A stretch of DNA of 53,510 bases from a bacterium (lineage in GTDB: Bacteria > JAJRZV01): NCBI GenBank assembly GCA_024275095.1, contig JAJRZV010000123.1:1-53510 (forward strand). The letters are read 5' to 3'. A program made the translations under genes and the position numbers. The notes beneath the pieces are model-generated. The model was not told the origin of the DNA, did no database searches, and saw nothing but the letters and a program-made list of their open reading frames with translations. How positions within the stretch are numbered: position 1 is the first letter of the stretch; each line of letters opens with the position of its first letter. This document shows, piece after piece, positions 5,808-50,553 of this stretch.

Positions 5808-8800
5808 CTAATAGTATCCCTCAACTCTCACAAAAAAACCATGGCCCGTGTAACTGTCCAAATCGTAATCTCCAATTTCTACGCTTGAAAAATTATATCC
5901 TGCAGCAAGGTTAAGATGTTCGATAATGTTTCTGCTTACCTCAACAAGTGCACCATGAAATACACCATGGCTCCGGTAGTCCAGAAGGTAGTCCACCTCA
6001 GCTTCCCATTTGGAGAAGAAACGCAGATGAACTGCCGGACCAACGAGAAAACGATCCTGAGCATCGGAAATTGTATCAACTTTATCCCTATCACGCCGCC
6101 AGCCCGTTTTAAAAGAAAATCCAAGCCAGTCATTCACATCACATGCGGTGTCAGCAAAGGCTGTGAGAAATTGGGTTTTCACAGGCACACCAGCACCCGT
6201 TACATCCTCCCTGAGATCTGAAACCCGCGAAAACTTCATAAGCATGTCCAGCCTGCCGAAAAGGTCACGAAGAGCCCCGCCTGCAGTGACTTCCGAATAT
6301 GAAGAAATAACTCGTGAGGGCTCTGTGGGAGTATCAGCTTTGTACAAACTTCTGCGGTATCGACTGAAGGTGTAAAGATTCTTCGTGATTTTAAACCGGC
6401 CTGCAATTTCCGCATTCATCCCCTGAGAAGTTGTCATACTGGATGAGCGCGACAGCTCAAACCGTCCATAAATTCTGAATTTCGGAGTCTGAAAAGTGGT
6501 GACAATTCCCCCTGTATCGCGTTCAAGACTTCCACTTGTTACCCTAATTTCACCCTTTTCATAGTAGACATTTACATTGAGGCCCTTGGCCGTTGCCCAT
6601 TCAACACCCACAACGTTACTTCGCTGATTTGTACCGCCATGAGCAATACGCTGTTCCCCGTAAAATTTCATGCGCTTGGTCAGGTAATACGCTGTTCCAA
6701 AAGCAAACTGCCCGATAGTGGTACCCGTTCGGTTCATAATACTGTATGAAGCATAAGTGGTATCACCCTTGGTACCGCGGTATCCCAAACCCACACGCGC
6801 AGCAGCCCCGGATTCCCCGTAAGAACCCTCTGCAGACACCATTACCGGTTCGAGCACGTCAGTAACAACACCAAGTGCTACCTGGTGACCACCCTGATAA
6901 ACGTGACCCCGTGACGCGAGCAAAAACTGCGCACGAATGAAAGGATTTACGCTCTGTTTCTCTCCCACGTGGAAGCGGTAGAGAATGGACGGAGAGATAT
7001 ACGCCTCGCGTCCGTATTCATCTTTTCCTGGAAAGCGCTGGGCCCACGAAAATACAAGACCCGCTTGAAGAGAACGCCACCTGTAATTTCCGCTCAGGTC
7101 CACCCGCTGAACAACATTCCTGTCAGCGCCTTCTCCTGAATCCACATAATCATAGTAAAAGGCACCTCCAAGAGGCTGTGGACGTCGAGATATTCTCAGG
7201 CCATACTGTTCCAGCCCCCCGCTCTGACTTCTACCGCTTGTAAAACCTTTTTCTCGCCTCATATAAAATCCCGATGCGCTGAACCAATCGTTATCACTCC
7301 CGAGCTCAACCCGCCAGGCATCCTTCCAGTCCGACCCTGCATCTGTAATGCTCTGAGTATAGAAGCTGACACCCGCATCATCAGACACATCAAGAAATGG
7401 TTGAGGACGCCGGGAACGGGCGAATTCAAAGATTCCCCTTACGTACCGGTTAAAATCAAATCGTACATCAATTCCACCGAGCGCATAACTTCCATCTTTT
7501 ACTGCCGTGACCCCAAGCTTCACATTCTTATGAGGTTCAAGCTCAACTCTTTCACCGTAAAGAATATTTTCCAGGCCATCGCTCAGGTATTCGTACTCCA
7601 CCACCAGATAAATCTCATGTCCTTCCTGAAAAAGATCTGGCCGCTGCGAAGACACAAATGTGGTTAGAGGATAGTAAAGATCTATCATTCCCGAAGAGTA
7701 ATCTATTGAATAATCTCTATTTCGTTTCAATACCAGATAATCTACCACCACTCCAGATACATGTTCGCGAAGTTCGACAAGAACTTTCTCAGAACCTTCC
7801 ACTACGTTTTTACGACGCAAAAAGTACAGGCTACCTCCTGTAGAGCGAAACTCATCGCGTTCAAAAGCAGTGTTTTCGCGACTTACAAAACCCTTCAAAC
7901 GCAGTGTGGGCAGGTTCTTTAAAAGTTCTGCTGACGAGAATTCATATCTTAGGCCGTAAAGGCTACGGTTGTAATACGTGAGTTCTGTATCTGTAAAAAG
8001 CGTATCATACCCCCCAAGAACAAGCGAGGCGTTTTTTCTGAACTGCAATCTCAGGAAGGTATCACCTGCCGAAGCAGTGGCATCCCAGGAACGCGCATCG
8101 TCACCGTATTCAGGATATTCTCTATTCAGTTCAATTGCCTGGAAAATTCTATCCGTCCGCTGAGGGGTTATCTGAATAATTTTCTTCCACATTTTTTCAA
8201 AATCACTTACTCCACTATCTATCCCGAACTCAAAAGTAAGGCCTTCGGGATGTTCACCGTATCCGTAAACAGAGAGTTTTCCCTTTTTTATGAATTTATT
8301 CTCCGTCGAATAGCCAAAAATTCCATAACCCAGCGCATTAATGTAGATGTCTTTTTTATCAAAATATACATTCTTTTTTATCTCCACGTTTTCCTCCGGC
8401 AAAAATGCCTGAACGTGAAGCAGTGTTGCAGTTACATTTTCAGGAAAGTGTATAAAGGAATGGAAACGTCCCTCACTGTCCAGGGATACCAACTGTCCAT
8501 TAACAGTGACGGTACACGAAATCGGCGCTTCACCCGAAATAAATAAATTACGCGATGACAGGTGGATGTCTCCCTCTGGAAGATTAAGCACAAGATACGA
8601 TCTTACATAACCTTCCTTCACAACGGGAGTGGAAGTGTATTCCAGTACATACCTTACAGGCAGGTGTTCTTTGAAAAAACCTGTAATGTTAAACCGTCCC
8701 TGGGGCTGCTTGATAAAAAGAGAAAGTTCCAGACCTTCATTTGCAGGCACATCATAACGTTCACCATCCAACAAAACATATTGAAGTCCCTCTCCTGATA

Positions 8801-11800
8801 TGGACAAATCCACAACCTTTCCCTCTTCAAGGGCGAACTCAAAGGAGGTGGGAGCCCCTACGATGAGATGCCCGAACGAACCTTTAAAGCGCTGCTCCTT
8901 ACCCGTGGAGTCAGTAATAAAGATAGACAGTTTGTCTTCCATAGGCGGCAACGTATATCTAAAGCGCGCCGACGGATCAACGTCCACTTTTTTACCGTTT
9001 ACCTTTACCTCCGGTTTAAAAGAAGACAGCTGTAGCAACACCTTGCCGCCTTCGGTCTTTATTTCCACACGTCTGTTACGGGCCATATTCTCAGGGGTAT
9101 CATTGGGATAAAGAGGTCTGGATTCACCATAACCGATCGTGGTGATTCGGTCAGAAGAAATACCTTCAACAATTACCAGATAATCTTTGACCATTTCCGC
9201 ACGTTTCTTTGACAGTTCCAGATTGTACCATTCCGGCCCACTTGAATCGGTATGACCCTCAACAATAATTTTCAACTCGGGATTTTCCCGAAGGTAAACC
9301 GCCAGTTCTCGGAGTTTTTTAATAAATTCTGGAAGGAGGTAATAAAGGCCCTTTTCAAAATAAACTCCTCTCTCAAGTGTCTTCATCGGTGGTGATGCAA
9401 GTACAACAAATGTTTTCACAGAACTGCGGGCATACATGCCATCTTTTTCAGCTTCAATATAAAAAGAATACTCATTGCCCGTGCGTAAAAGCATGTGCCC
9501 CGACCTGTCCCTTCCATTCCACGAAAAAGACTTGGGAGGATTACCCGAGCCTTCCAGTGTGTAAATATCCTTTCCTGAAGAATCTTTAATAACAAACCGG
9601 TAACTGTCAGGTGGCTCTTGAAAATTATGGGATGTCATAAAAGAAAGCTTTACATCCAGTCGGCCTTTCCGGAGTATGAAGTATCTTTCTTCTTTTCTTA
9701 CAGAAAGGTCAGCATCTACATACGGAAGTTTTATACGCTTGCCGTTGATGTAAATAACGCCCTTGGCAGCGTTACCTTCTATCACATGATGGGTCATTCT
9801 ACCCGAGAAGGATCCCCTGTATTTCATCAATGTCTGAAACGGGATTTTTACAGGTTCCAGTTCCATGAACACAGGGAAGTTGACTTTGCGGGTTTCTCCA
9901 CGCTGAAGTTCAACTATGACTGATGGTTCGGATAGCTGAAACCCCGGTGGCAGATAGGACATATCAGGTTTAACCTGAACCCGCTCGTATATCATTCCGC
10001 TTGTACCACTTTCTCCTACTTCAATGTTGTTAATGTGATACCGACCGTATTCATCCGTGATAGAACATGCTCCTTTATCTATACACACGCGAACGCCGGC
10101 AATACCGGGCTCATCAGGATCTCTCACACCATCGTAGTCTATATCCATAAACACAGATCCAATAATCCTGGCATTATCCGCGATAGGGTCAGGGGTTACA
10201 GCAAGTGTATTCATCGCCTGGTTCGATATGTTTGTGGAATTTACCGCGACAACAGCTTTCAAATTAAATGTACCTTTTGTAACACCTGGTACCGGTACAA
10301 AATACCCCACGAAAGTCCGCCTCTCCATGGAGGCCAGAGACGTAAGCGAAAGCGTGTAAGGTGAGCCTCTGGATATTTCCATCTGGCCGTTCTTACTGAA
10401 AAGCCTGCCCCGGTAGATTGCGAGTTGAGGCGGCACATCTATCAAGAGTGTTGAAGGTGCGACAGGTAAAGGATTCGGATTCTCAATAACCAATCGAAAG
10501 GGAGCCATCGAAGAAGTACCTACGATTTTCTTTAACACCTCCAGCTTTAACTTGAGAAAAGATTGAAGAGCTACCGCGGTATCCACGGACCTGTCAGTAA
10601 TGTCAACCGGATCCTGGTAAACAGCCGCAACAGTAAGGCCGTTGGAAGGAGATTGTATAACTCCATCGTCCGGGACCCCGGCAGAAAATTCAACTTCTAC
10701 TCTGTCAGACATAAAAATGCCTGTATTGTCGCCTGTTTCTTCGAGTTTTATAACTTCTCTATCGGCATATTCACCGGGAGCCTGCCAGCCCACAAAAACA
10801 ACGGCTGTTACTTCATCAGGACTTGCGGTAGCTACATTGCGATCAGGGTCGGAAAGCTCCAGATAGAGGTCGGTGGTATCATTGACGATTTCCAGTTTGG
10901 AGCCTCCTGCGTCAACGATTTTTAATACAGAGGGTGTACCCGTATCAACTACATTTGCTTCAGCCTGACATACATCGTCAGGGGCATCCGGATCGGTAAA
11001 TACAACAGAAATCACCTCGTCGGGATTGGCCGAGATAACTCCGTCGTTTGACTTCACATCAGAAGAATTCCTGTATTTGGAAACGAATATTTCACCGCGA
11101 AATACCCCGGTGTTGTCACCGTCCTCCACGAGAGTCAACAGCTCTACGTCCCCGCTTTCGTCATTTCTCACGGTAATCTGCACCTCATCGGGCAGTTGGG
11201 AATTTCTATTTTCATCCCTGTCCTGAAGTATAAAGTACATTGTGCTGTTCACGGGGTAAGAGGAAACCTTGGTATCTGCAGCGTTTACAATATCCATCTG
11301 GCACGGAGAATTGCCCATGATCTCCGCGCAACTGACCCGAGGATTTTCGCCAACCTCCTGAGTTGATACGCAAAACCGATAACCAGGTTCAACATATATT
11401 GCGTTTGCACAGCCTGTTTGATTCAGTTCATCCGCCAGCTCCTGTGAAGTAACAGCCTGGACGTACCCCAGGAAATAACCGTCAGCATATTCCGGGTCTT
11501 CAGGATGATAATCCGCAAAAGTCTCCTTTATGGGAATTGAATAACATATACTTTTCGTCTTTCCGCTTGGGTCCTTGACTATATAATTAACACGTTTATA
11601 CGTATTTGCACTTCCGTCACGCTTGTCCAGGTCATAAACAAAAAAATCAATGCTTGTTGGGGCTGGAAACGTGGTAACAATTCTAATGCTGTCATCCTGG
11701 GTTTCATAAAAGTATATTTCCGAATTGGTGATTACCCGAACCTCACCCGAGCAGGAGTCTATCGGAGGGTAAGTATCCGTCTGGCTGATGAAAGTCGCCC

Positions 11801-14800
11801 TCACATACTGGGTCCCCTCCCCTGTGGCCTCAACACAGCAATCCGGATCTCCTGACACGCCCATCTCACATACACCATTATCATCATCAGGACACGCCTC
11901 TTTCACGTTCAAAATCGGGGAACGAAATTTTCCTGAATCGCCGGCTGTTTCCCTTACCTGCACCACTGTACGATCAAGCACATCAGTCTTGGTTCGATCG
12001 TAAACCCTTACAGTGGCGGTTATGACATCCAGCACTGAATCGTCCAGGTTCTCGTCTGGGTCCACAATTTCCACCACAAGCTGGGCGCCGGGTTTAATGT
12101 ACGGGCTGATTCCTCCACCCGCATAGGGCAGCTTGGCTGAGCAGTGAGTCTCCATCACCAGTACAGCGGCCTGGTAGTGACCGTTCTGATTCACCCCTTC
12201 AAAACCCGGCGTGGTGGATGGAAGAGCATATCTCATGGGTTCGTCATTGTTGGTATTCCCATCCCATGAATACCAGCCCTGTTGGGAAAGTGTATCTTTC
12301 ACCGCGACGAGATGTGCAGATTGAAAATTCTGAGTGGTCCCGTCAGGATACAAAACGAGTTGCGTGATATAACCCCACGTCAGCACATCATCTGCACGTG
12401 GATTAGACCTTCCCGGGGCACCGATCCCCTGGGAATTGGTCGTAAATGAAACATCGTCACCGTTGGTATATTCAAGAGTTATCCGTGCGTTGCCCACAGG
12501 GTTCCCATCTCGATTTATCACATAAACGATTCCATACCATGCCTGCATAACCGCAAGTGTAGTAACGTTGAAAACGTTTCCCGAGGTTCCGGCGATAATG
12601 CTGTCAAAATTGGAAGGGGTGGTGTCCACGCTGAAAATGGCTCCCTGGGCGGGGGACCCTGCAAATGTGTTATTCGTAATCACCGGTGACGAAAATATGT
12701 CATCCGCGGTACCCGAGGGACTCCGATCAGTCCCGTAGTACGGGGATATGTAAATACACTCTTGTGTACAGTCAGAGAAAGAATTGCCATCTATAGTTGG
12801 AGAAGACCCGGAAATATAAATGCCAGTTACTGCGGAAGCAAAGGAATTATTGGAATTGATGGTGACACCTGAGGAGAGGATGACTTGTAGATTGTATGCA
12901 CCACCTGAAACGCTATTTCCCTGGAGCAAAAAGGTGTTCCCACCTTCAAGGTATATTCCTGTATCCGTGGTATTCGAAATGAGATTATTCTGAAGAGTAA
13001 CGTTCGATGTCCCGTTAATGGATCTTATACCGTAGTAGTTAGAATTAATTCCTCCGGACCCCGAGACCTGGATTGTATCGCATGCGTCAGCACATACACC
13101 GGAACCTGAATTATAACAATTTGAAGTTTCTTCCGCGGAGGGTTTGCCCGCGTTGCTGATGTCCCCTATATTCGACAGCGTTATGTTCGACGAGCTTTCA
13201 CATGCAACGTTAGCATGAGTATTATTACTTATGGATGTAAGATTGGAAAGAGTAACCCCAGATGAGGAACCGGCGATACGCACGCCGTAATAAAGATTAT
13301 TTGAGACATCTCCACCGTCAAAGCTTACGGTGGAAGAGTTAAACAAATAAAATCCGGTAGAGCCGTTCCAGCTCATTGAAGTAGAAGATATGGTAATAGT
13401 AGAAGAGTTCTTGATTTCCACACCGGATGAAACGTTATTTTGAACAGTGGTATTTGAAATATTAACGGTGGAAGCATTATTTATATCAATACCGACTCCC
13501 GAATTGTATGTAATTGTACAATCGGATATGGTGAAGTTCTGCAGTCCTCCATTTGTGGAGGCATTCGCCACGACACCGCTGCCACCGTTGTTATTTACTG
13601 AACATGAAGGCCCTGATATGGTTACTCCATCAGCCTCCAGAATATGGACACCACCATCTACATTGTTATTTATGGTATTTTGCTTGATTAAAATATTATC
13701 AGAGCTATCACCTGTAATTTGAATCCCATATTCACCATTGTTGCTGATCGTATTTATAGCAATAATGTTTCCTCCAGAATTATTTATAAAAATACCGTGC
13801 GAACCACTTGATGAAATAAGACCTGAGTTGTACACAACACTGTCCGTCGCATCATTCAAAAGGTATACACCGTAAAAATGATTCCCAACAATTTCCACGT
13901 TATCTGTAACTACGTTCCCGTATGTGCCCACGTCTGAGATGGTAACTCCTACATAAAGTGAATTATCTATAATATTTGAAGGGCCAATCATATTATTATA
14001 TGCACCATAATTTATGAATACTCCGGTAAAATTTCCATCGATAGTTGAAGAAGCCACACGGTTGTTATACGAACTTTCGGAAATAAAAACGCCGTTTTCT
14101 CTATTATCAGATATTGTGCATCCGTAGATCAGGTTGTCGTGAGAACTGAGAAAAATGTAAATGCCCTCGTTGGCATTAGAACTGACAGTGGTACTTGTAA
14201 TGGTGTTCGAATAAGCACCACCAGCAATCTTGATGCCGTTCTCTCCATTGGATTCAAACGAGCTTCCTTCTATGTAGTTACCTGAAGAACCCGTCCCCAG
14301 GATTTCTAATCCGTTAAAATAATTCCACGAAGATGTAATATTAAAAAAACTATTGTTTGAAGCATCGAGAATAACAATAGCTGAACCCTTAAAATTGCTT
14401 ATGGTCAAATTTTCAAAGCAACTATCCGAAGAATATATCTCGAAAGCGTTGAAAATGCCTGAAGCAGATATCCCGTCCACGTACACTCCTGACGTGCCTC
14501 CTGATATAACCACGCCCTCGGTGAGTGTAAGTGCTCCCGAAGTGATAAACACGTGCGTTACAGAGGCAGCAAAAACAATGCCGTCAACTCCCGGCGTGGT
14601 ATTGGCCCATTCAACAGCTGCACGCAATGAACCTGGACCGGAATCCGCGGCACTGGTCACTGTCGTAACAGAAGCAGGCAGGGAACATGCAGACCAGGCT
14701 TCCGGGGCTGTATAGAAAAATGTCATTATAATAAAACAAGTTAAAAGTACCAGTTTCAGTGTTTTTATTTTTCGACGATGAGAATTTCTTTTGTAAAAAG

Positions 14801-14825
14801 ATGAAATAAAAAAATCCTTTTCCAC
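5808..14825 (-). CDS. Giant (3005 aa) outer-membrane protein: beta-helix, DPD-type repeats, DUF11-like, SdrD-B-like, OmpA-like and C-terminal barrel regions
   Basis: Visible order: signal peptide (1-46, ending AWSA); CSLREA-like start (VTTVTSAADSGPGSLRAAVEWAN) and right-handed parallel beta-helix to about 740, rich in N/S/T and hydrophobic rungs such as GVHILEADGVTIS; at least three Ig-like units with the pattern DPD-x-N...DEV...ETGDNTGIF (about 900-1420); DUF11-like domain (1425-1555); SdrD-B-like unit IDYDGVRDPDEPGIAGV (about 1570); OmpA-type peptidoglycan-binding motif EGHTDSSGPEWYNLELSKKRA (about 1855), which is internal; further beta domains; then a region (YPEYGDDARSWD, DTELTYYNRSLYGL, about 2230 on) leading to a strand-rich part ending FFVRVEGYY. 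A terminal aromatic is typical of BAM-inserted barrels. It probably spans the outer membrane and presents the helix in the periplasm or outside. The GTG start lacks a clear ribosome site. Confidence 0.8.
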   Translation of the reverse strand: MEKDFFISSFYKRNSHRRKIKTLKLVLLTCFIIMTFFYTAPEAWSACSLPASVTTVTSAADSGPGSLRAAVEWANTTPGVDGIVFAASVTHVFITSGALTLTEGVVISGGTSGVYVDGISASGIFNAFEIYSSDSCFENLTISNFKGSAIVILDASNNSFFNITSSWNYFNGLEILGTGSSGNYIEGSSFESNGENGIKIAGGAYSNTITSTTVSSNANEGIYIFLSSHDNLIYGCTISDNRENGVFISESSYNNRVASSTIDGNFTGVFINYGAYNNMIGPSNIIDNSLYVGVTISDVGTYGNVVTDNVEIVGNHFYGVYLLNDATDSVVYNSGLISSSGSHGIFINNSGGNIIAINTISNNGEYGIQITGDSSDNILIKQNTINNNVDGGVHILEADGVTISGPSCSVNNNGGSGVVANASTNGGLQNFTISDCTITYNSGVGIDINNASTVNISNTTVQNNVSSGVEIKNSSTITISSTSMSWNGSTGFYLFNSSTVSFDGGDVSNNLYYGVRIAGSSSGVTLSNLTSISNNTHANVACESSSNITLSNIGDISNAGKPSAEETSNCYNSGSGVCADACDTIQVSGSGGINSNYYGIRSINGTSNVTLQNNLISNTTDTGIYLEGGNTFLLQGNSVSGGAYNLQVILSSGVTINSNNSFASAVTGIYISGSSPTIDGNSFSDCTQECIYISPYYGTDRSPSGTADDIFSSPVITNNTFAGSPAQGAIFSVDTTPSNFDSIIAGTSGNVFNVTTLAVMQAWYGIVYVINRDGNPVGNARITLEYTNGDDVSFTTNSQGIGAPGRSNPRADDVLTWGYITQLVLYPDGTTQNFQSAHLVAVKDTLSQQGWYSWDGNTNNDEPMRYALPSTTPGFEGVNQNGHYQAAVLVMETHCSAKLPYAGGGISPYIKPGAQLVVEIVDPDENLDDSVLDVITATVRVYDRTKTDVLDRTVVQVRETAGDSGKFRSPILNVKEACPDDDNGVCEMGVSGDPDCCVEATGEGTQYVRATFISQTDTYPPIDSCSGEVRVITNSEIYFYETQDDSIRIVTTFPAPTSIDFFVYDLDKRDGSANTYKRVNYIVKDPSGKTKSICYSIPIKETFADYHPEDPEYADGYFLGYVQAVTSQELADELNQTGCANAIYVEPGYRFCVSTQEVGENPRVSCAEIMGNSPCQMDIVNAADTKVSSYPVNSTMYFILQDRDENRNSQLPDEVQITVRNDESGDVELLTLVEDGDNTGVFRGEIFVSKYRNSSDVKSNDGVISANPDEVISVVFTDPDAPDDVCQAEANVVDTGTPSVLKIVDAGGSKLEIVNDTTDLYLELSDPDRNVATASPDEVTAVVFVGWQAPGEYADREVIKLEETGDNTGIFMSDRVEVEFSAGVPDDGVIQSPSNGLTVAAVYQDPVDITDRSVDTAVALQSFLKLKLEVLKKIVGTSSMAPFRLVIENPNPLPVAPSTLLIDVPPQLAIYRGRLFSKNGQMEISRGSPYTLSLTSLASMERRTFVGYFVPVPGVTKGTFNLKAVVAVNSTNISNQAMNTLAVTPDPIADNARIIGSVFMDIDYDGVRDPDEPGIAGVRVCIDKGACSITDEYGRYHINNIEVGESGTSGMIYERVQVKPDMSYLPPGFQLSEPSVIVELQRGETRKVNFPVFMELEPVKIPFQTLMKYRGSFSGRMTHHVIEGNAAKGVIYINGKRIKLPYVDADLSVRKEERYFILRKGRLDVKLSFMTSHNFQEPPDSYRFVIKDSSGKDIYTLEGSGNPPKSFSWNGRDRSGHMLLRTGNEYSFYIEAEKDGMYARSSVKTFVVLASPPMKTLERGVYFEKGLYYLLPEFIKKLRELAVYLRENPELKIIVEGHTDSSGPEWYNLELSKKRAEMVKDYLVIVEGISSDRITTIGYGESRPLYPNDTPENMARNRRVEIKTEGGKVLLQLSSFKPEVKVNGKKVDVDPSARFRYTLPPMEDKLSIFITDSTGKEQRFKGSFGHLIVGAPTSFEFALEEGKVVDLSISGEGLQYVLLDGERYDVPANEGLELSLFIKQPQGRFNITGFFKEHLPVRYVLEYTSTPVVKEGYVRSYLVLNLPEGDIHLSSRNLFISGEAPISCTVTVNGQLVSLDSEGRFHSFIHFPENVTATLLHVQAFLPEENVEIKKNVYFDKKDIYINALGYGIFGYSTENKFIKKGKLSVYGYGEHPEGLTFEFGIDSGVSDFEKMWKKIIQITPQRTDRIFQAIELNREYPEYGDDARSWDATASAGDTFLRLQFRKNASLVLGGYDTLFTDTELTYYNRSLYGLRYEFSSAELLKNLPTLRLKGFVSRENTAFERDEFRSTGGSLYFLRRKNVVEGSEKVLVELREHVSGVVVDYLVLKRNRDYSIDYSSGMIDLYYPLTTFVSSQRPDLFQEGHEIYLVVEYEYLSDGLENILYGERVELEPHKNVKLGVTAVKDGSYALGGIDVRFDFNRYVRGIFEFARSRRPQPFLDVSDDAGVSFYTQSITDAGSDWKDAWRVELGSDNDWFSASGFYMRREKGFTSGRSQSGGLEQYGLRISRRPQPLGGAFYYDYVDSGEGADRNVVQRVDLSGNYRWRSLQAGLVFSWAQRFPGKDEYGREAYISPSILYRFHVGEKQSVNPFIRAQFLLASRGHVYQGGHQVALGVVTDVLEPVMVSAEGSYGESGAAARVGLGYRGTKGDTTYASYSIMNRTGTTIGQFAFGTAYYLTKRMKFYGEQRIAHGGTNQRSNVVGVEWATAKGLNVNVYYEKGEIRVTSGSLERDTGGIVTTFQTPKFRIYGRFELSRSSSMTTSQGMNAEIAGRFKITKNLYTFSRYRRSLYKADTPTEPSRVISSYSEVTAGGALRDLFGRLDMLMKFSRVSDLREDVTGAGVPVKTQFLTAFADTACDVNDWLGFSFKTGWRRDRDKVDTISDAQDRFLVGPAVHLRFFSKWEAEVDYLLDYRSHGVFHGALVEVSRNIIEHLNLAAGYNFSSVEIGDYDLDSYTGHGFFVRVEGYY

Positions 14826-40925: not shown

Positions 40926-42356
40926 TCACTGCAATGGTCGGATTTCCAGGTAATGCACACCTTCCTCTGGAATCTCGTAAATAATGAGCCTGCTCGCAGC
41001 ACTGTCAAAATAAAAAGTATCCCCGGGAAGGTCTGTGGAAATTTGGAAACCGTCCGGGTAATGCCGTTTTTGAGGCACAAAAATTTCGCTGACACCTGTG
41101 ACCCCTGGCTTGCTCTCAAATTCAAGTCTAAAAACCTTTTCTTCAATAGAAAATGAAAGTTTCCTGACTCTCCCTGCAAAAAACACGGGATATGGTCGTA
41201 CCAGAAGGTTAAGAAAGGGCTTTTCACTTCCATCGGGCCAGAGAACGGTCTGGCCCTCGCTTTTATCAAAAGACCAGTAAAGCCAGCCCACCAGACGTTC
41301 ATCAAGAAGATCAAGAAATGCGCCGATGTAATCCAGCTGGCCCGGCACCTGATCATCCCTCATGGTTCCAAATTCTCCGAGCCACCACGGCATGCCAAGT
41401 CTGGCGGCTTCCTCTTCAATTTCATTTACCGACCTTCTGATAAAACTTTCGTTTCCTGAGTATTTACCAAACGCTACGATATAGGGATCATATACATGCG
41501 GCGAATACATGAGATTGGGAGCATCGAACCTCTGCATGTACGTGGGAATTCCCATGTCGCGGAGGGGATTGGGTTCAATAAAAATAATATGATAGGGGTC
41601 TACTTTTCTGATGGCTGCAATTGTCCTCTCGTAAAATGGCTGGAGATATTTTATGTCGAATTCAGGAGCTCCAAAAAGCGTGCCGAAACTTCCGTAATAG
41701 GGCTCATTTATAATGTCATATCCAGCAATGTACGGTTCATCCTTAAATCTTTCTGCCACTGCTACCCACACCTGGACAAAATGATCCTGAACTCCGTTGG
41801 TATTCTTCCAGAAATTATCGAAGGCCCTGATGACAGCAGGTTGGTAGTAATTGAGCGGCCAGGGACTCAAACATTCAAATTCAATACCTTCATCAAGGCA
41901 AGCCCACTCAGGTGCACCATCACCACAGTACTTTTCAGAGTAAAGGTCCTGATGCATATCAAGAACGGTGTAAATACCCAGTTCAGCTGCCCATTTTACC
42001 CTTTCGGCAATATACTCGATGTAATCATCGTTAATCACACCAGGCTCGGGCTCCAGGGCGGCCCACACAATGGCCAGCCGAATAACCGAAAAACCCCATT
42101 CTTTCAACTTTTGAAAATCTTCCCTTGTGTGCCACAGTGTATAAGGCTTCTTGGGGGCGGCAAGTTGAAGTCCTCTCAAAAGCACTTCTCTCCCCTGACC
42201 GTCCACAACCTTTGACCCCTCCACGTGAAGCCAGGGACCGGGTAAGGGTGTCGGCTTTTCTTCTTCTCCACAGCTCCCCAGAAAAAACACCAGCACCATA
42301 CAGGACAATATTATTCCCGATTTTTTGAACAAAAATATAAGATGTTCAGCTTTCAC
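40926..42356 (-). CDS. Glycoside hydrolase family 5 lipoprotein (endoglycoceramidase-like)
   Basis: About 476 residues, starting at a GTG (42356) with AAGGAAAGG just upstream. The lipobox is FFLGSC (C29). The catalytic barrel shows VEGSKVVDGQGREVLLRG, LKEWGFSVIRLAIVWAALEP, YTVLDMHQDLYSEKY, the acid/base Glu in GYDIINEPYYG (about 217) and the nucleophile Glu in WWLGEFGTMRD (about 330). The DMHQD sequence and the C-terminal beta domain recall endoglycoceramidases (EGCase), which cleave glycan from ceramide. Other GH5 glucanases remain possible. The start shares one base with the TAG of the broken DUF362 gene, so translation may have been coupled to it. Confidence 0.83.
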   Translation of the reverse strand: MKAEHLIFLFKKSGIILSCMVLVFFLGSCGEEEKPTPLPGPWLHVEGSKVVDGQGREVLLRGLQLAAPKKPYTLWHTREDFQKLKEWGFSVIRLAIVWAALEPEPGVINDDYIEYIAERVKWAAELGIYTVLDMHQDLYSEKYCGDGAPEWACLDEGIEFECLSPWPLNYYQPAVIRAFDNFWKNTNGVQDHFVQVWVAVAERFKDEPYIAGYDIINEPYYGSFGTLFGAPEFDIKYLQPFYERTIAAIRKVDPYHIIFIEPNPLRDMGIPTYMQRFDAPNLMYSPHVYDPYIVAFGKYSGNESFIRRSVNEIEEEAARLGMPWWLGEFGTMRDDQVPGQLDYIGAFLDLLDERLVGWLYWSFDKSEGQTVLWPDGSEKPFLNLLVRPYPVFFAGRVRKLSFSIEEKVFRLEFESKPGVTGVSEIFVPQKRHYPDGFQISTDLPGDTFYFDSAASRLIIYEIPEEGVHYLEIRPLQ

Positions 42357-43141
42357 TACCCTTTCCTTCTCACTCTCACATGTTCTCTGAATATTGATAC
42401 CAGATTCAGGGCGAGACCACCAGTGCGCCAGCGAGGTTTTTTCCACGTTCCTGAAACAACCGCCTGTGGTTTCGAACCCACTAAAATGTACGATGGATTA
42501 AAACCTGCAGAAATAGCGGCTCTGAGATAGGCAATATCCTTTATTGTAAATCCTATAATTTCTGCAAGGGCAAAATCGGCAGAAAGTGCATCATTGGAAG
42601 TGATGATGAAATTTGTCTCTTTGGGTTTACCAGCTACCGGGGCGTAACCTTCATACGAAATCGTTCCGTCCACAACCACTATGTGAGAAGGGAAACTTCT
42701 GTAGATGTCCAGAAACACCTGCCCTTCAGTATCTGCAAAACCTTTGGTATGATAATGCAAAAGTTTAAAAGGAGCAGGAAGAACACCAAACATATTCTTA
42801 ATGGGTCCGCTCATTTTGTAAAAGGAATGGGTTTTGGCAACAGGTAAATTGATAACAACTGGGTCACCATTTTTCAATAAGACTGTCTTTCAAAAGAGGG
42901 CCCAGTCTCCACCATACAATAGAACCGCTTTCGCCGATAAAAATTGGAATATGGGGGTTAATGTCACGCAAAATATCAACAACTGCATTGACAACTGCTG
43001 GTGAGGTTTGACTCCTGGCCTGTCTTTCATTCCACCTGCAAGATTGGGCTTAATAAGAACAAGACTATGAGTTTTTAACAAACCTGCCAGATAATTCAAA
43101 CCATTCCACTGATACGGACTTTTACTTCGAATCAGAGGGGT
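42356..43141 (-). pseudogene. DUF362 family protein, multiply frameshifted remnant
   Basis: Homology to DUF362 (proteins often associated with Fe-S clusters) runs through three frames. The part HSLVLIKPNLAGGMKDRPG is in one frame to about 43010. TSPAVVNAVVDILRD and IFIGESGSIVWWRLGP are in a second frame to about 42873. The part from VVINLPVAKTHSFYKMSGPIKNMFG to the end returns to the first frame. Two compensating indels are therefore needed. In addition, the stretch between IGES and NLPVAKTH is shorter than usual, implying an internal deletion. Upstream, a TGA at 43142-43144 closes the frame and no proper N-terminus exists. Confidence 0.72.
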
Positions 43142-43659: not shown

Positions 43660-46566
43660 GTGCCGGCCCTGAATAAATATTTAAAAGCCGTGACCATCTC
43701 TATATTACTTATTAACTTCTCCGGATGTAGTGGAAAGGATAAACAATATATATCTGGTTGCCTCTTGGATTCCGATTGTGATGCAGGGTATACATGTCAA
43801 AACGGAAACTGCATAGATGTGACACCTCCTGAGCCTCCCGACATCACGCGGATTATCGTGAACCAGAATCCCCCGGGAACAGATGATACAGTGTCGGGGA
43901 CACCGGGAGCTGTGGAAGAAAACGCCTGCGTGGTTATATATGCAGACCCGGAGCTCACGCGTGAAATCGGCAGAATCCAGGCCCATAGCAACGGGGGATT
44001 CCCTCCGATCAGCATAGGAGACAACCTGTACGAAACAGTTTACATTGTAGCTGAAGATGCTTCCGGGAACAGGAGCGCGTACATCGTTGTCAATAATGAC
44101 ATTACCCCCCCGGATACCAATATCGTTTCGACACCTCAAGATCCCACCAGCTCAACCCTTGCGACTTTTGAATTTATCTCTACAGAAAATGATTCCACGT
44201 TTAAATGCAAACTGGACACCGGCCACTGGTATTCATGCACTTCTCCTGAGATACTCACAGGGCTGGCGGAAGGTTCACATGTTTTCAAAGTGTATGCTAT
44301 TGACAGTGCAGGGAATATTGATTCCACCCCTGCCGTGTACACGTGGACAATCGATACAACACCGCCTGACACCAGCATCACCTCGTTCCCACAAAACCCG
44401 ACCTGCTATACTTACGCAACCTTCACCTTTACCTCCACGGAAGAGAACTCGACCTTCATGTGTCAAATCGACAATGGGGGATGGTACGAATGTGATTCTC
44501 CACATGCGGTAGATACCCCCTCAGAAGGCCTGCACGTATTCACAGTGAAAGCCGTTGACCAGGTGGGAAATTCTGATCCCACCCCTGACACTTTTACATG
44601 GGAAATAAAAGGAAACATCGCGGAAGCAGTGGACAATGCAGAATACGCGTGGATAACAGGTGGCGATTCCATCTGGTATCGCCAGAGAAATGAGTACGTC
44701 CACGATGGAGATGCTGCCCGCAGTGGTGCGATAAGGGATAACGAGCGCACCTATTTTCAAACCACCATTACCGTACCTGCTGACACCACGGGCTCCATAA
44801 ATTTCTACTGGAAGGTCTCCTCTGAGAGAGGGGGGGATTTTCTGAGTTTTTACGTGGACAATCTAACAGAAGCCTCCATCAGCGGCGACGTGGACTGGGA
44901 ATTTCAGTCATTCAAGATCACCTCCGGCACCCACACATTGAAATGGGAATACTCGAAGAATGAAGCACTCAGCATTGACTCGGACGCAGGCTGGGTGGAC
45001 TGGATCCTGATAGCGGTACCAGAAATTTTATGGAACTACTATGCAGGTGACCGGGTCCTTTCATCTCCCGCCCTTGGAGACGTGGACAATGACGGAAAAT
45101 TAGAAGTTGTTATAGGAGCAAACACAAATTATGTATACGCGTTTAATGGGGAAGATGGCACTCAACTATGGGCTTACAACACCGGCAATACAGTGGTCTC
45201 TTCTCCAGCCATCGGGGACATTGACAGTGATGGAATTTTAGAGGTTGTTGTCGGCAGCACCAGTGGCAACGTTTACGCCCTGAACGGTGAAAACGGCACC
45301 GTCCTGTGGACGTACAGCACAACAGGAGCTGTGTACTCTTCTCCAGCCATCGGGGACATTGACAACGACGGAAAACCTGAAGTGGTCGTGGGCTCAGGTG
45401 ATTACAACGTTTACGCTCTTAACGGAGAAGACGGTTCGCTGCTGTGGTTGTACACCACGGGCAACCGGATCGGTTATTCCTCTCCAGCTCTTGGAGATAT
45501 ATGCGGCAACGGCAGGCTCGAAGTCGTCATCGGGTCTTCGGACGGCTACGTGTATGCACTCAGTGGCGGAACGGGAGCACTGCTCTGGCAATACGACACG
45601 GGAGCAGGATTCGCGGTCAACTCTTCCCCTTCCCTCGCGGACGTAAATGGTGACGGAACACTCGACGTAATCGTGGGTTCTACCAGCAATTATATTTACG
45701 CCCTCAGGGGTGACACCGGATTGGAGTGCTGGACATTCTACACTGACGGCGATGTCACCTCCTCACCAGCACTTGGTGACATAAACAACGATGGTCAACT
45801 GGAGGTGGTCTTTGGCTCCGACGACGGAAAAGTTTACGCTCTTCGCTCAACCAGCGGAGTCCAACTGTGGTATTACAATACTTTCAACCCTGTAAAATCT
45901 TCACCTGCCCTGGGCGATGTTGACGGGGACGGGAAAATCGAAGTGATCGTGGGATCAGGTAACTACAAGCTGTACGTTCTCAACGGAGAGGACGGGTCCT
46001 TTCTGTGGGCCTACAGCACGGGTGACACGATTTTCTCTTCCCCTGCACTCGGCGACATCAACGGTGATGGAAGGCTTGACGTGGTGGTGGGTTCTTTCAG
46101 TGGTTATATCTGCGCCCTTTCGACAAGAACAAATGTACCAATTCCCGCTCTCCTGCCCTGGCCTGAGCTCGGAAACAGGAGTTACAATCGCACGCGCAAT
46201 CTGGACCCGTGGGAATACAACGACAGGTTTACAAGGCCCTCTCGCATTGCTGACCTCTCGAGAAACGGTGCCGTACCCGGATACATCTGGAAAGGAGGAG
46301 ATGTGGACTATTATTCGTTCCCTGTCATGACAACGCCGGCGACAATTACTGTGAGGCTCGAAAATATTCCCGCCGCACCCAACTATGACCTGTTTCTCTA
46401 CGACCCGCTTGAAAATCTGCTCGGGCAATCCACAAACGAAGCAAACGCCGATGAAGCGATTACGTTCCCTGTAAATGCAACGGGAACATACTCAATTAAA
46501 GTCACCTCTTCCTACGGGAATTCACCCGCAGAGCCATATTCTCTGTACATCCGGGTAGACCCGTAA
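43660..46566 (+). CDS. Large surface lipoprotein with Ig-like repeats, FG-GAP/PQQ-like beta-propeller and a C-terminal pre-peptidase (PPC) domain
   Basis: The 968-residue protein starts at a GTG with a leader ending at NFSGC (lipobox-like). A short cysteine motif CLLDSDCDAGYTCQNGNC follows. Two Ig-like repeats of about 84 residues begin PPDTNIVSTPQDPT and PPDTSITSFPQNPT (about 44107-44610). A jelly-roll-like domain follows (YFQTTITVPADTTGSINFYW). Eight propeller repeats (45061 on) fit SSPALGDVDNDGKLEVVIG-VYALNGEDG-LLWAY and end near 46130. The C-terminus is a PPC domain (GGDVDYYSFP, YDLFLYDP). It is probably outer-membrane anchored and outside the cell, binding sugar, metal or protein. No catalytic motif is seen. 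Confidence 0.82.
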   Translation: MPALNKYLKAVTISILLINFSGCSGKDKQYISGCLLDSDCDAGYTCQNGNCIDVTPPEPPDITRIIVNQNPPGTDDTVSGTPGAVEENACVVIYADPELTREIGRIQAHSNGGFPPISIGDNLYETVYIVAEDASGNRSAYIVVNNDITPPDTNIVSTPQDPTSSTLATFEFISTENDSTFKCKLDTGHWYSCTSPEILTGLAEGSHVFKVYAIDSAGNIDSTPAVYTWTIDTTPPDTSITSFPQNPTCYTYATFTFTSTEENSTFMCQIDNGGWYECDSPHAVDTPSEGLHVFTVKAVDQVGNSDPTPDTFTWEIKGNIAEAVDNAEYAWITGGDSIWYRQRNEYVHDGDAARSGAIRDNERTYFQTTITVPADTTGSINFYWKVSSERGGDFLSFYVDNLTEASISGDVDWEFQSFKITSGTHTLKWEYSKNEALSIDSDAGWVDWILIAVPEILWNYYAGDRVLSSPALGDVDNDGKLEVVIGANTNYVYAFNGEDGTQLWAYNTGNTVVSSPAIGDIDSDGILEVVVGSTSGNVYALNGENGTVLWTYSTTGAVYSSPAIGDIDNDGKPEVVVGSGDYNVYALNGEDGSLLWLYTTGNRIGYSSPALGDICGNGRLEVVIGSSDGYVYALSGGTGALLWQYDTGAGFAVNSSPSLADVNGDGTLDVIVGSTSNYIYALRGDTGLECWTFYTDGDVTSSPALGDINNDGQLEVVFGSDDGKVYALRSTSGVQLWYYNTFNPVKSSPALGDVDGDGKIEVIVGSGNYKLYVLNGEDGSFLWAYSTGDTIFSSPALGDINGDGRLDVVVGSFSGYICALSTRTNVPIPALLPWPELGNRSYNRTRNLDPWEYNDRFTRPSRIADLSRNGAVPGYIWKGGDVDYYSFPVMTTPATITVRLENIPAAPNYDLFLYDPLENLLGQSTNEANADEAITFPVNATGTYSIKVTSSYGNSPAEPYSLYIRVDP
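45061..46127 (+). repeat. Eight tandem coding repeats of about 46 codons (beta-propeller blades)
   Basis: Each unit starts with an SSPALGD-like motif, followed by a DxDxDGxLEVVxG metal-loop-like segment, VYAL and xxGxxLWxY. Eight copies can be counted. The nucleotide sequences of the units still look similar, so recombination or assembly collapse could change copy number. Confidence 0.75.
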
Positions 46567-46868: not shown

Positions 46869-47720
46869 TTGATCGTGTGCACGGTGATTAAAAGTTCAAT
46901 CCTGGTCGCCCTCATGTGGCTTCCCTGTAACCCCGCCTCTGTTACGCAAAGCCTGACAAGAGGACTTTCATTTTTGCAGGCGTACGAGCTGCGCTATAGT
47001 GCAAATTACGGTTTCATATTCAAAGATATCTGCGACAAGACGCACCTGAAGGAAGCGTGTGAAATTTTCGAACATATAAAAAGAAATTCGTCTGCCTCCC
47101 CGTTTTACTTTACCGTTAACTTTTCATCAAAAAGTGCCCCCCTTTTTGAGCCGGAGGAGGTGTATAAAATCGAGCGCTTATACAGCGCCTATTCTCCTGC
47201 AAAAGATTATTATTCGGAATCCACACACAACTTCATCCACAATTTATTCCTGATCTTCAGGCAGGGGTTTGAAGCTATTGAGGGATGTTACAGTAAAATG
47301 TCAACCATCGAAAATCCCGGGAGAATTGCGGAAACGTTTGTCAATATGAAAGGCTTGAACGGGTATACGCTTTCACACCACTTTTATTTTCTTTACTTTC
47401 TCCGTCTGTCAAGATGCGATGAAAAACTCATTGATTTCAATGTCAGAGATATAATCAAGCGAGACCTCCAGCTGATGTGGAGAGAACACCAACAAGATAA
47501 AGAAATGCACGACCTGTGGTATGAAAGGCTGGCTTTCATCTCTTTGGCATGTCCCAAATGCCTTACCAAAGACGACATCTGCAAAATCCTGAGCGCACAA
47601 CGACCGGACGGCAGCTGGACTGGAACACGCGAAGAGGACAGGCATAGATCAAAAATTTTTCATACCACTTTACTGGCTTTATGGGCTTTAACAAATGCAA
47701 CGCATCCCCACGCGAAATAA
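46869..47720 (+). CDS. Exported protein of unknown function with a C-terminal alpha/alpha-toroid-like repeat
   Basis: About 283 residues. A hydrophobic leader (SSILVALMWLPCNPA) suggests export. The protein is mostly helical and Cys-containing. The C-terminal KILSAQRPDGSWTG and FHTTLLALWALTNA resemble the QW-type repeats of squalene/hopene cyclase-like and prenyltransferase-like alpha/alpha barrels, but no DxDD or DDxxD motif is seen. The start is uncertain: TTG 46869, GTG 46875 and GTG 46884 are all possible. It lies after the possible structured RNA and 69 bases before the GMC gene, so it may belong to the same transcript. I do not recognise its function. Confidence 0.6.
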   Translation: MIVCTVIKSSILVALMWLPCNPASVTQSLTRGLSFLQAYELRYSANYGFIFKDICDKTHLKEACEIFEHIKRNSSASPFYFTVNFSSKSAPLFEPEEVYKIERLYSAYSPAKDYYSESTHNFIHNLFLIFRQGFEAIEGCYSKMSTIENPGRIAETFVNMKGLNGYTLSHHFYFLYFLRLSRCDEKLIDFNVRDIIKRDLQLMWREHQQDKEMHDLWYERLAFISLACPKCLTKDDICKILSAQRPDGSWTGTREEDRHRSKIFHTTLLALWALTNATHPHAK

Positions 47721-47789
47721 TCGATGCCCACGAAATGCAAATCTGATAATATAAAAGCGGTTGTCACGCATCCTTGAAAAGGGCAGGAT

Positions 47790-49229
47790 ATGAGAGAACA
47801 AACAGACGTGGTTATCATTGGCTCTGGATTTGGGGGTGCCATTCCCGCCCTTCGGCTGGCGGAAGCCGGTAAACGCGTAATAGTGCTGGAAAGAGGAAAA
47901 AAATACACAGAAAAGGACTTCGAACAGCGCTGGGATATCAAGTACCTGATGAATTTATATGCTGTCTATTACAACGATGACCTGAACGTATTCTTCCGAA
48001 CATGCAGGATGTTAGGTGGAGGATCTGTGCTTTATTCAGGTGCAATGCTGAGGCCGCCCTCGGAAGTTTTCGAGTACAGAGATTCTTCCGGTTACAAGGT
48101 GTGGCCTGACGAGGTGACCCGGGAAACCCTGGACCCTTATTTCGAGCGGGTGGAACGCATGATGGAAGTAAGGCAGGCCACGTGGGACGAGGTTCCGCGT
48201 TCAGGAGCTGTCTTTGCCATGCTCCTTGACAACATCGGCAGAACGTGTGACAGGGGGCGTTTTCCTTATGTGAATTGCAGGCAATGCGGGTTCTGCGAAG
48301 CGGGCTGTATATTTGGTGCAAAAAGGCACCTGGGGTACAACTACATTCCTGCCGCCCAGGCACTGGGAGCTGAATTCCGCACAGAGTGTGAAGCACTCTA
48401 CATCAAGCACGAACTGGGACGTTACGTGGTGGAATATCGCACACGCGAAAATCAGCTCAGGGAAATCGAATGCGACGTGTGCGTGGTAGCAGCCAATGCC
48501 ATTGAAACTCCGGCCCTGCTTCTGAGGTCCAGGCAATATCTGCGGAACCTCAGCGACCAGGTGGGACGAAATTTTCATAACAACGGTGACGTCGCATTTT
48601 TCATTGAACTTCCCGAAGGATTTGCAGACTTCACCGTTTACAAGGGGCGAACGAATGCCGTGATGATTACTTACGACTACTGGGACGAACACAGAATTAC
48701 AATTCACACGGGGTGTCAGCCTCCGGTTATATTTGCAGCACTGGAGCTTTGTCCAGTGAATGAAGACATGATCCCTTTTGGACTGCAATACAAGCACTAT
48801 CTAAAAGAAATTTACCTCAACCGGCTCATCGGGTGTCTCGCCATCGGCCTAGTAGACGGTGAGGGCCGAATTTATGCAGGCCCCAACGGAAGACCTGTTA
48901 TTTATTTTCCCCTCACAGAGTCCCTGCACGCATATATCCAAAGGGTTGTCAACGAGGTGGCACGTGAAATCGCCGAGGGCAATGGGGGCCGCGTGCTTTA
49001 CACAATGAAAAAAGGGTTTGAGCACGGGGATGCCCATCCTCTGGCGTCCGTGAGAATGGGCGATGACCCGGCAAAAGCACCCTGCACACCCTATGGAGAA
49101 CTGCGGGGTTACCCGGGGATTTTCATTACCGACGGCAGTTCCATACCTGGAAGTACGGGAGTAAATCCAGCACTCGCCATCGCCGGTAATGCCGAAAGAA
49201 TTGCCGACTACATTGTGAAAAACTACTGA
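47790..49229 (+). CDS. GMC-family flavin oxidoreductase with a cysteine-cluster insert
   Basis: The 479-residue protein shows the FAD-binding GSGFGGAIPALRLAEAG (11-27) and RMLGGGSVLYSGAMLRPP. At the C-terminus are GDAHPLASVRMGDDP (catalytic His region), FITDGSSIPGSTGVNPALAI and GNAERIADY. Unusually, residues about 163-173 read CRQCGFCEAGC, spaced C-x2-C-x2-C-x3-C, matching a 4Fe-4S ferredoxin-type motif. Short GMC proteins of this type are related to sugar, alcohol or sterol dehydrogenases. The next genes encode a gluconate-dehydrogenase subunit-3-like protein and a cytochrome, so electrons likely leave FAD through the cysteine cluster to haem. The start lies after an AGGA site. Confidence 0.85.
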   Translation: MREQTDVVIIGSGFGGAIPALRLAEAGKRVIVLERGKKYTEKDFEQRWDIKYLMNLYAVYYNDDLNVFFRTCRMLGGGSVLYSGAMLRPPSEVFEYRDSSGYKVWPDEVTRETLDPYFERVERMMEVRQATWDEVPRSGAVFAMLLDNIGRTCDRGRFPYVNCRQCGFCEAGCIFGAKRHLGYNYIPAAQALGAEFRTECEALYIKHELGRYVVEYRTRENQLREIECDVCVVAANAIETPALLLRSRQYLRNLSDQVGRNFHNNGDVAFFIELPEGFADFTVYKGRTNAVMITYDYWDEHRITIHTGCQPPVIFAALELCPVNEDMIPFGLQYKHYLKEIYLNRLIGCLAIGLVDGEGRIYAGPNGRPVIYFPLTESLHAYIQRVVNEVAREIAEGNGGRVLYTMKKGFEHGDAHPLASVRMGDDPAKAPCTPYGELRGYPGIFITDGSSIPGSTGVNPALAIAGNAERIADYIVKNY

Positions 49230-49789
49230 TGGGTATCACAAGAAGAGAATTTAATCGCTTATTACCAGCTGCGCTCTTATCCGTCGCGTTGCTGGAGGGA
49301 TGTGGAGAATCTCGACAAAAGAAATTCGCGCCCCAGTGTCTTTCTCCTTCTACAGAAGATCAGAAAATTCTTTGCAGATTCTGTGAAGCAGTGATCCCCG
49401 GCCCCCGGGAAGACCCGACCGGTGCGCCAGGAGCGCTCGAGGTATGCGCGCAAAATTTCATGTACGATGACTCCCTCATGTTTCGTAAAATTGCTCCCAC
49501 AGTATCATTCATGCTCGAACAAAAGGCTCGAAAAATATACGGCAAAAGCTTTACAGCTCTTACTCTGCAGGAATGCACAGAAGTGATACTCGCTGTAGAA
49601 GAGGAATTCCCCCAGCTGACTCTCGTTATTCGATTTGTAAAAACCGCCTTTTACGCGGGGGGCTTGAGCAACGCAGGCTGGAAATACATGGGATACAGGG
49701 GACCCAACATGGGGTATTTCAACGACCCCCAGTTTACTTTCGGGAGGCCTGTGTGCAGAGAACGCACATCTGATGGAATCATGCCGTGA
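49229..49789 (+). CDS. Gluconate 2-dehydrogenase subunit 3-like protein with Tat signal
   Basis: The 186-residue protein starts MGITRREFNRLLPAALLSVA, which contains the twin-arginine motif RREF, and then LLEGC, a lipobox (possibly Tat-lipoprotein). The mature part has LCRFCEAVIPGPREDPTGAPG and a helical domain typical of the subunit-3 family, which escorts or stabilises the flavin subunit during Tat export. The GMC partner has no signal peptide of its own, so co-export through this subunit is plausible. The ATG overlaps the GMC stop (TGATG) and the end overlaps the cytochrome start. Confidence 0.82.
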   Translation: MGITRREFNRLLPAALLSVALLEGCGESRQKKFAPQCLSPSTEDQKILCRFCEAVIPGPREDPTGAPGALEVCAQNFMYDDSLMFRKIAPTVSFMLEQKARKIYGKSFTALTLQECTEVILAVEEEFPQLTLVIRFVKTAFYAGGLSNAGWKYMGYRGPNMGYFNDPQFTFGRPVCRERTSDGIMP

Positions 49790-50553
49790 AAAAGGCGCAC
49801 GTAAAACTCATCCACTGTACGCTCCTGCTGATGCTTTACACTGGGTGTGGCTCAGAATTAAATACTTCATCTGATACCTCCGCATGCTTTTACTGCCACA
49901 GCTCAGCCGATTTGACAGAGACGTTTCCTACTGCTTCATCCTCTCCCCAGGAGCACATGTTGTTCTACGGCAGCGGAGTGGAATCAGGACCTTCCTACGA
50001 TCCCACCGCAACGGCATCGTTTACAATAGAGTGGATCAAACGCGGGTACCATGACGAAGAATCACTGAGGGACTGTTCTCCATGCCATAACACGCTCGAG
50101 GACAACGAGCACGGAGGTTTTTTCTATCCTGCGTATTCCAGGGAGCAATTCTACTCCCCCGCAGGTTGTGCAAACGCCTGCCATAAATGGCTTTACTGCA
50201 CCTCGTGGGACCCGGCAGTGCTTTTATCCGAATCCGGTAATCCTCATGGTGATCTCTTTCGTAGAGGATATGAAGGTAACACCCGAAGCATCATGCTGGC
50301 GGAAATAAAACCCGGTTGCGGGGGCTGTCATTCAGTTGCGGAGGTGCGCCACGGCGCAATTCCAGGCTGTCTTGACTGCCATGATTTTTATACGGGTTCA
50401 AATACCGACGAGCACTCCCTTCACCTCGAAAGGCTGGCGGACGATAATTCCCCGTGCACCTGGTGTCACGGTGGCTATGGAGGCACAAAATACAAAGCCG
50501 CCTGCTATAACTGCCACGAAAGCGGCCACAACCCGCGTGCCATTAATCATTGA
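49786..50553 (+). CDS. Multiheme c-type cytochrome lipoprotein
   Basis: The 255-residue protein starts at a GTG overlapping the previous stop (GTGA). A lipobox, LYTGC, follows. Six CXXCH motifs are seen: CFYCH (about 34), CSPCH (97), CGGCH (178), CLDCH (194), CTWCH (224) and CYNCH (240). A seventh reads CANACH (about 127), a CX3CH motif that some cytochrome maturation systems accept. His residues for second ligands are plentiful. It probably takes electrons from the GMC dehydrogenase and passes them to a further acceptor. Its end overlaps the convergent pgeF gene by 11 bases. Confidence 0.88.
   Translation: MKKAHVKLIHCTLLLMLYTGCGSELNTSSDTSACFYCHSSADLTETFPTASSSPQEHMLFYGSGVESGPSYDPTATASFTIEWIKRGYHDEESLRDCSPCHNTLEDNEHGGFFYPAYSREQFYSPAGCANACHKWLYCTSWDPAVLLSESGNPHGDLFRRGYEGNTRSIMLAEIKPGCGGCHSVAEVRHGAIPGCLDCHDFYTGSNTDEHSLHLERLADDNSPCTWCHGGYGGTKYKAACYNCHESGHNPRAINH

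Follow-up and report, generated by a model that had tools for sequence, protein, structure and literature searches.

FAD dehydrogenase complexes have been studied, and put to use, for direct electron transfer to electrodes via their triheme cytochrome. Among the closest described systems is the FAD-dependent glucose dehydrogenase of Burkholderia cepacia (FAD-GDH, BcGDH; PDB 6A2U), which consists of a GMC alpha subunit, a gamma hitchhiker subunit and a triheme beta subunit; its [3Fe-4S] cluster is bound by Cys212, Cys218 and Cys222, a His/Asn pair with His476 as the catalytic histidine is the proposed catalytic center, and the small partner is the export carrier of the GMC subunit (PMC6719666). 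The sixth ligands of its haems are Met109, Met263 and Met386 (PMC5979317).

Here, we describe a locus that combines this catalytic plan with an unrelated seven-haem carrier predicted to be all-bis-His. We posit that its three genes probably encode an exported three-subunit FAD alcohol/sugar dehydrogenase in which a seven-haem lipoprotein replaces the triheme His/Met cytochrome. The operon, its conservation, the residue motifs and the presence of genes for TatC and cytochrome assembly all suggest this reading at the level of sequence, and from them we infer that the subunits form a complex and in which direction electrons flow.

Layout and distribution of the three-gene unit

The window, that is, the whole stretch of 53,510 nucleotides analysed here, contains four ORFs between positions 46869 and 50553 in the ORF listing, all on the plus strand (Table 1). 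The GMC gene shares 1 base (TGATG) with the subunit-3-like gene, which in turn shares 4 bases (GTGA) with the cytochrome gene, and an opposite-strand gene 3' of the cytochrome gene overlaps the end of the unit by 11 bases. The preliminary description had the genes overlapping by 1–4 bases, which holds for the two junctions within the unit. Between the end of the alpha/alpha-type ORF and the GMC start there are 69 bases, so these two do not overlap. We found no support for this ORF as a member of the set. Its only resemblance elsewhere is a weak C-terminal match (31% over 71 residues), and no other locus bearing the GMC/cytochrome unit has a linked homologue, for which reason it was rejected as a fourth subunit.

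Table 1. Features of the locus, in window coordinates
Feature	Position	Strand	Remarks
Alpha/alpha-toroid-like protein	46869..47720	+	Adjoins the conserved unit but lies outside it; no Pfam or NCBIfam match
GMC-family FAD dehydrogenase, 479 aa	47790..49229	+	Pfam GMC_oxred_N and GMC_oxred_C; no signal peptide of its own
Cys cluster C163-x2-C166-x2-C169-x3-C173, predicted Fe-S site	48276..48308	+	Invariant in 13 GMC proteins
Predicted catalytic His416	49035..49037	+	The same in all 13 GMC proteins; corresponds to the BcGDH histidine in the alignment
Predicted catalytic Asn459	49164..49166	+	The same in all 13 GMC proteins; BcGDH and cholesterol oxidase share the His/Asn pair
Subunit-3-like exported partner (putative Tat carrier or 'hitchhiker'), 186 aa	49229..49789	+	RR at residues 5-6; lipobox-like Cys25
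Seven-haem c-type cytochrome lipoprotein (predicted), 255 aa	49786..50553	+	Cytochrome_C7; seven motifs; lipobox-like Cys
Haem motif 1, CFYCH	49885..49899	+	
Haem motif 2, CSPCH	50074..50088	+	
Haem motif 3, CANACH (CX3CH)	50167..50184	+	CX3CH at this place in 10 of 10 orthologues
Haem motif 4, CGGCH	50317..50331	+	
Haem motif 5, CLDCH	50368..50382	+	
Haem motif 6, CTWCH	50455..50469	+	
Haem motif 7, CYNCH	50503..50517	+	

A protein search with the window GMC recovered loci L003/L036 (genome G019), L032, L033 and L034 at 52–56% identity. The check proposed beforehand, a search for the same gene order in other genomes, was positive: GMC, subunit 3 and seven-haem cytochrome follow one another at L032, in the phylum of G019 (L036, L054, L055, L056, L058 and L059) and at L064/L065. 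At least three other deep lineages of uncultured bacteria share this order with the window. Genomes G158 and G296 also carry the unit, whose carriers are known here only from metagenome-type assemblies. Using a profile of three cytochromes, we found the cytochrome in 8 of the 9 genomes of the G019 phylum, and at the loci read there its neighbors are the GMC and subunit-3 genes, save at contig ends. Across 386 genomes sampled broadly over the domain, matches to the cytochrome (E <= 1e-12) and to the close GMC (E <= 1e-70) are confined to the identical six genomes, which represent three families and therefore not six independent events. The genes flanking the unit vary between lineages, marking out these three as the unit. 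Conserved order and perfect co-occurrence in the sample thus bear out the earlier suggestion that the three genes belong together.

At six other GMC loci in the window's genome, the stretches read contain no multihaem gene, so that the cytochrome belongs to this unit specifically. Conversely, the GMC protein may have other partners, since L033 encodes it alone, lacking an adjacent cytochrome or subunit 3, and L034 encodes GMC and subunit 3 but no cytochrome; judged by shared genes, L033 is a second GMC copy in the genome to which L059 also belongs.

Flavoprotein, putative exported partner and cytochrome

The window GMC protein scores above the cut-offs of both Pfam domains (GMC_oxred_N, 1.4e-19; GMC_oxred_C, 8.2e-9), begins its Rossmann fold at residue 5 and belongs to a 12-member clade of close copies (support 100/100). 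By profile comparison its nearest solved structures are cholesterol oxidase (8.9e-24), FAD-GDH (8.1e-22) and FDH (5.1e-18); an AlphaFold model from a four-sequence alignment reached a pLDDT of 37 and was uninformative. C163, C169 and C173 of its cysteine cluster show the spacing, 6 and 4, of the three [3Fe-4S] ligands of BcGDH, and motif and spacing together lead us to predict a [3Fe-4S]-type site, in which the fourth cysteine could permit a [4Fe-4S] cluster instead.

The subunit-3-like protein of the window scores 17.9 bits against PF13618, below the cut-off of 23.4, which its orthologues at L034, L036, L056 and L064 pass; that of L032 lies above the DUF5987 cut-off. Eleven copies, of which those of L055, L059 and L065 were read out from the overlapping frame, invariably have the twin arginine together with a lipobox-like cysteine. 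A subunit 3 profile gave no match among PDB sequences, and an AlphaFold model built with three sequences (pLDDT 56) gave a best E of 2.6 in a fold search of the PDB, likewise uninformative. All 6 genomes checked encode TatC and PF01578 cytochrome assembly proteins. By analogy with FAD-GDH, and because the GMC protein begins directly at its Rossmann fold, subunit 3 likely carries the GMC subunit across the membrane by the Tat pathway.

The third gene was initially described as encoding a multihaem lipoprotein rather than the usual triheme cytochrome, and this is corroborated by seven haem motifs (six CxxCH and one CX3CH), a lipobox-like cysteine and Pfam matches to Cytochrome_C7 (1.1e-7) and c3 types only. 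In 100,000 shuffles of its 255 residues, there were never more than four haem motifs. The seven sites align across ten orthologues, motif 1 being degenerate in L058, and all ten have a lipobox-like cysteine upstream of the first motif. Outside the motifs, exactly seven histidines are invariant in the ten proteins (H89, H109, H154, H189, H210, H213 and H248); together with the seven motif histidines they predict seven bis-His haems, which would be of low potential. A search of the PDB with the cytochrome profile returned one match, weak and unrelated.

Proposed mechanism, electron destination and substrate

We suggest that the GMC subunit would fold in the cytoplasm with its FAD and iron-sulfur cluster and then be exported through the Tat system, crossing the inner membrane on the signal of subunit 3. 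Outside the inner membrane its His/Asn pair would oxidise an alcohol group, with electrons passing from FAD through the Fe-S cluster to the seven bis-His haems of the lipoprotein and from there into the cell's multihaem cytochrome network. The window's genome encodes a tetrahaem class III cytochrome, several proteins with 8–11 haem motifs, a NapC-like protein and an NrfD protein, and on contigs C34 and C127 a Rieske/cytochrome b pair was recognised (by eye only). Given a genome so rich in multihaem cytochromes, we consider a periplasmic cytochrome pool at least as likely an electron destination as the cell surface.

An outer-membrane location of the lipoprotein, at or within the membrane, from which electrons would pass to a conduit at the surface and to an external acceptor, strikes us as rather unlikely. 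The genome does encode many multihaem cytochromes, including a cluster on contig C108, and the cytochrome bears its lipobox-like cysteine; a lipobox alone, however, fixes neither the membrane nor its face, beside no copy of the unit did we recognise, in the loci read, a gene for a surface cytochrome or an outer-membrane conduit, and the NrfD protein and NapC-like cytochrome on C34 would serve as ordinary periplasmic partners. The C108 cluster (L089, L090) is a large group of multihaem cytochrome genes around a gene for a 565-aa protein that lacks a Pfam match, and is a possible outer-membrane conduit. Distinctly doubtful, in our estimation, is an undescribed class of respiratory dehydrogenase, in which a GMC protein is coupled without intermediary to a seven-haem lipoprotein of low potential and then to an extracellular acceptor, which would allow quinone-free alcohol or sugar oxidation outside the cytoplasm.

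The nearest named relatives of the window GMC point elsewhere. These Streptomyces proteins (S. globisporus C-1027, S. goshikiensis) are 33–35% identical to it over 99%, and a DUF5987 gene precedes theirs, so that a small partner of a related family, the one whose cut-off the L032 subunit 3 passes, adjoins the GMC gene there as well. Two such pairs on Streptomyces plasmids (L103 and L105, the latter adjoining SgcE6 of C-1027) lie inside type I PKS clusters, and we take them to be the enediyne genes E8/E9. Were the window unit likewise biosynthetic, or run in reverse, its cytochrome would be an electron supplier or a small-scale sink. We regard this as improbable in view of the differences: the Streptomyces relatives have a CxxCxxMxxxC motif, with Met in place of the third cysteine (position 169), the DUF5987 partners in the PKS clusters start with no signal of Tat type, their listed neighbors include no cytochrome c gene, and the window unit has no biosynthetic cluster beside it. 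The Streptomyces pair instead looks like a relative of exported FAD dehydrogenases from which the export signal and one of the cluster cysteines are missing. Mere coincidence of neighbors, with the GMC protein and cytochrome never interacting, would sit well with the cytochrome-free GMC genes at L033 and L034, yet it is very improbable when the order is kept in at least four lineages despite differing flanking genes, the reading frames overlap and both genes have the same distribution in the 386 genomes.

As to the substrate of the exported dehydrogenase that we favor, several glycoside hydrolase genes lie nearby. A GH5 gene with a GH5_C domain is found in the window (40926-42446, minus strand), and similar genes neighbor L033 and, in G019, a further GMC pair (L043:6197-7699); the GH5 gene is of the type seen in the endoglycoceramidase and steryl-glucosidase families. 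A putative glycoside hydrolase of the GxGYxYP family (PF14323) adjoins the unit at L064:6844-8535 and L065:6665-8359 and the GMC gene of L034 (L034:2873-4654), whereas in genome G000 it lies elsewhere and not beside the unit. Since such neighbors vary by lineage and 6 of 12 genomes have no PF14323 gene, we do not claim a sterol or glycolipid substrate. The window further encodes, directly upstream of the locus, a lipoprotein-like protein of 968 aa containing a PPC domain and propeller repeats of the FG-GAP/PQQ type (43660-46566, plus strand) and, farther away, a protein of 3005 aa that combines NosD-like right-handed beta-helix repeats with an internal OmpA domain (5808-14825, minus strand).

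Comparison with known FAD dehydrogenases

Among solved structures, cholesterol oxidase is the best match of the GMC protein and also provides its best NCBIfam model (NF058674), whose cut-off of 850 bits is not passed by the window protein at 105 bits. Both have the motifs NLS-QVG--NG and GVNP in common, but the alignments stop short of the cysteine cluster, and we know of no partner cytochrome for cholesterol oxidase. The three-subunit fructose and gluconate 2-dehydrogenases resemble the unit in their overall plan and in that several subunit 3 orthologues belong to PF13618, and C169 and C173 align with FDH cysteines; their cytochrome subunit, in contrast, is of another profile type, and the GMC profile matches FDH with a lower score than it does cholesterol oxidase. 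A Caballeronia GMC protein with a Tat-signal partner has Arg at position 166. In the open-access literature searched we found no description of a GMC and multihaem cytochrome unit, which is weak evidence as subscription papers are mostly not covered.

The likeness to three-subunit FAD dehydrogenases, of which the preliminary description named the gluconate enzyme, extends to several tested residues, namely the His/Asn pair, the cluster cysteines and the twin arginine. As in BcGDH, the GMC subunit has no signal of its own, a small partner has a predicted Tat signal, the c-type haems reside on a separate subunit, and the cluster cysteines agree in motif and spacing. Unlike BcGDH, the window GMC has the additional cysteine C166 in its cluster motif, and the cytochrome has seven predicted bis-His haems and Cytochrome_C7/c3 profiles in place of three haems with Met as sixth ligands. 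If our reading holds, the electron-accepting subunit of this dehydrogenase class would be exchangeable, the unit might furnish a low-potential electrode enzyme, and these uncultured organisms would have a testable periplasmic oxidation route. The unit is thus built like the FAD dehydrogenase complexes but departs from them in the triheme His/Met cytochrome that defines them: its catalytic plan is already known, and what appears to be new is the union of that plan with an unrelated seven-haem lipoprotein.
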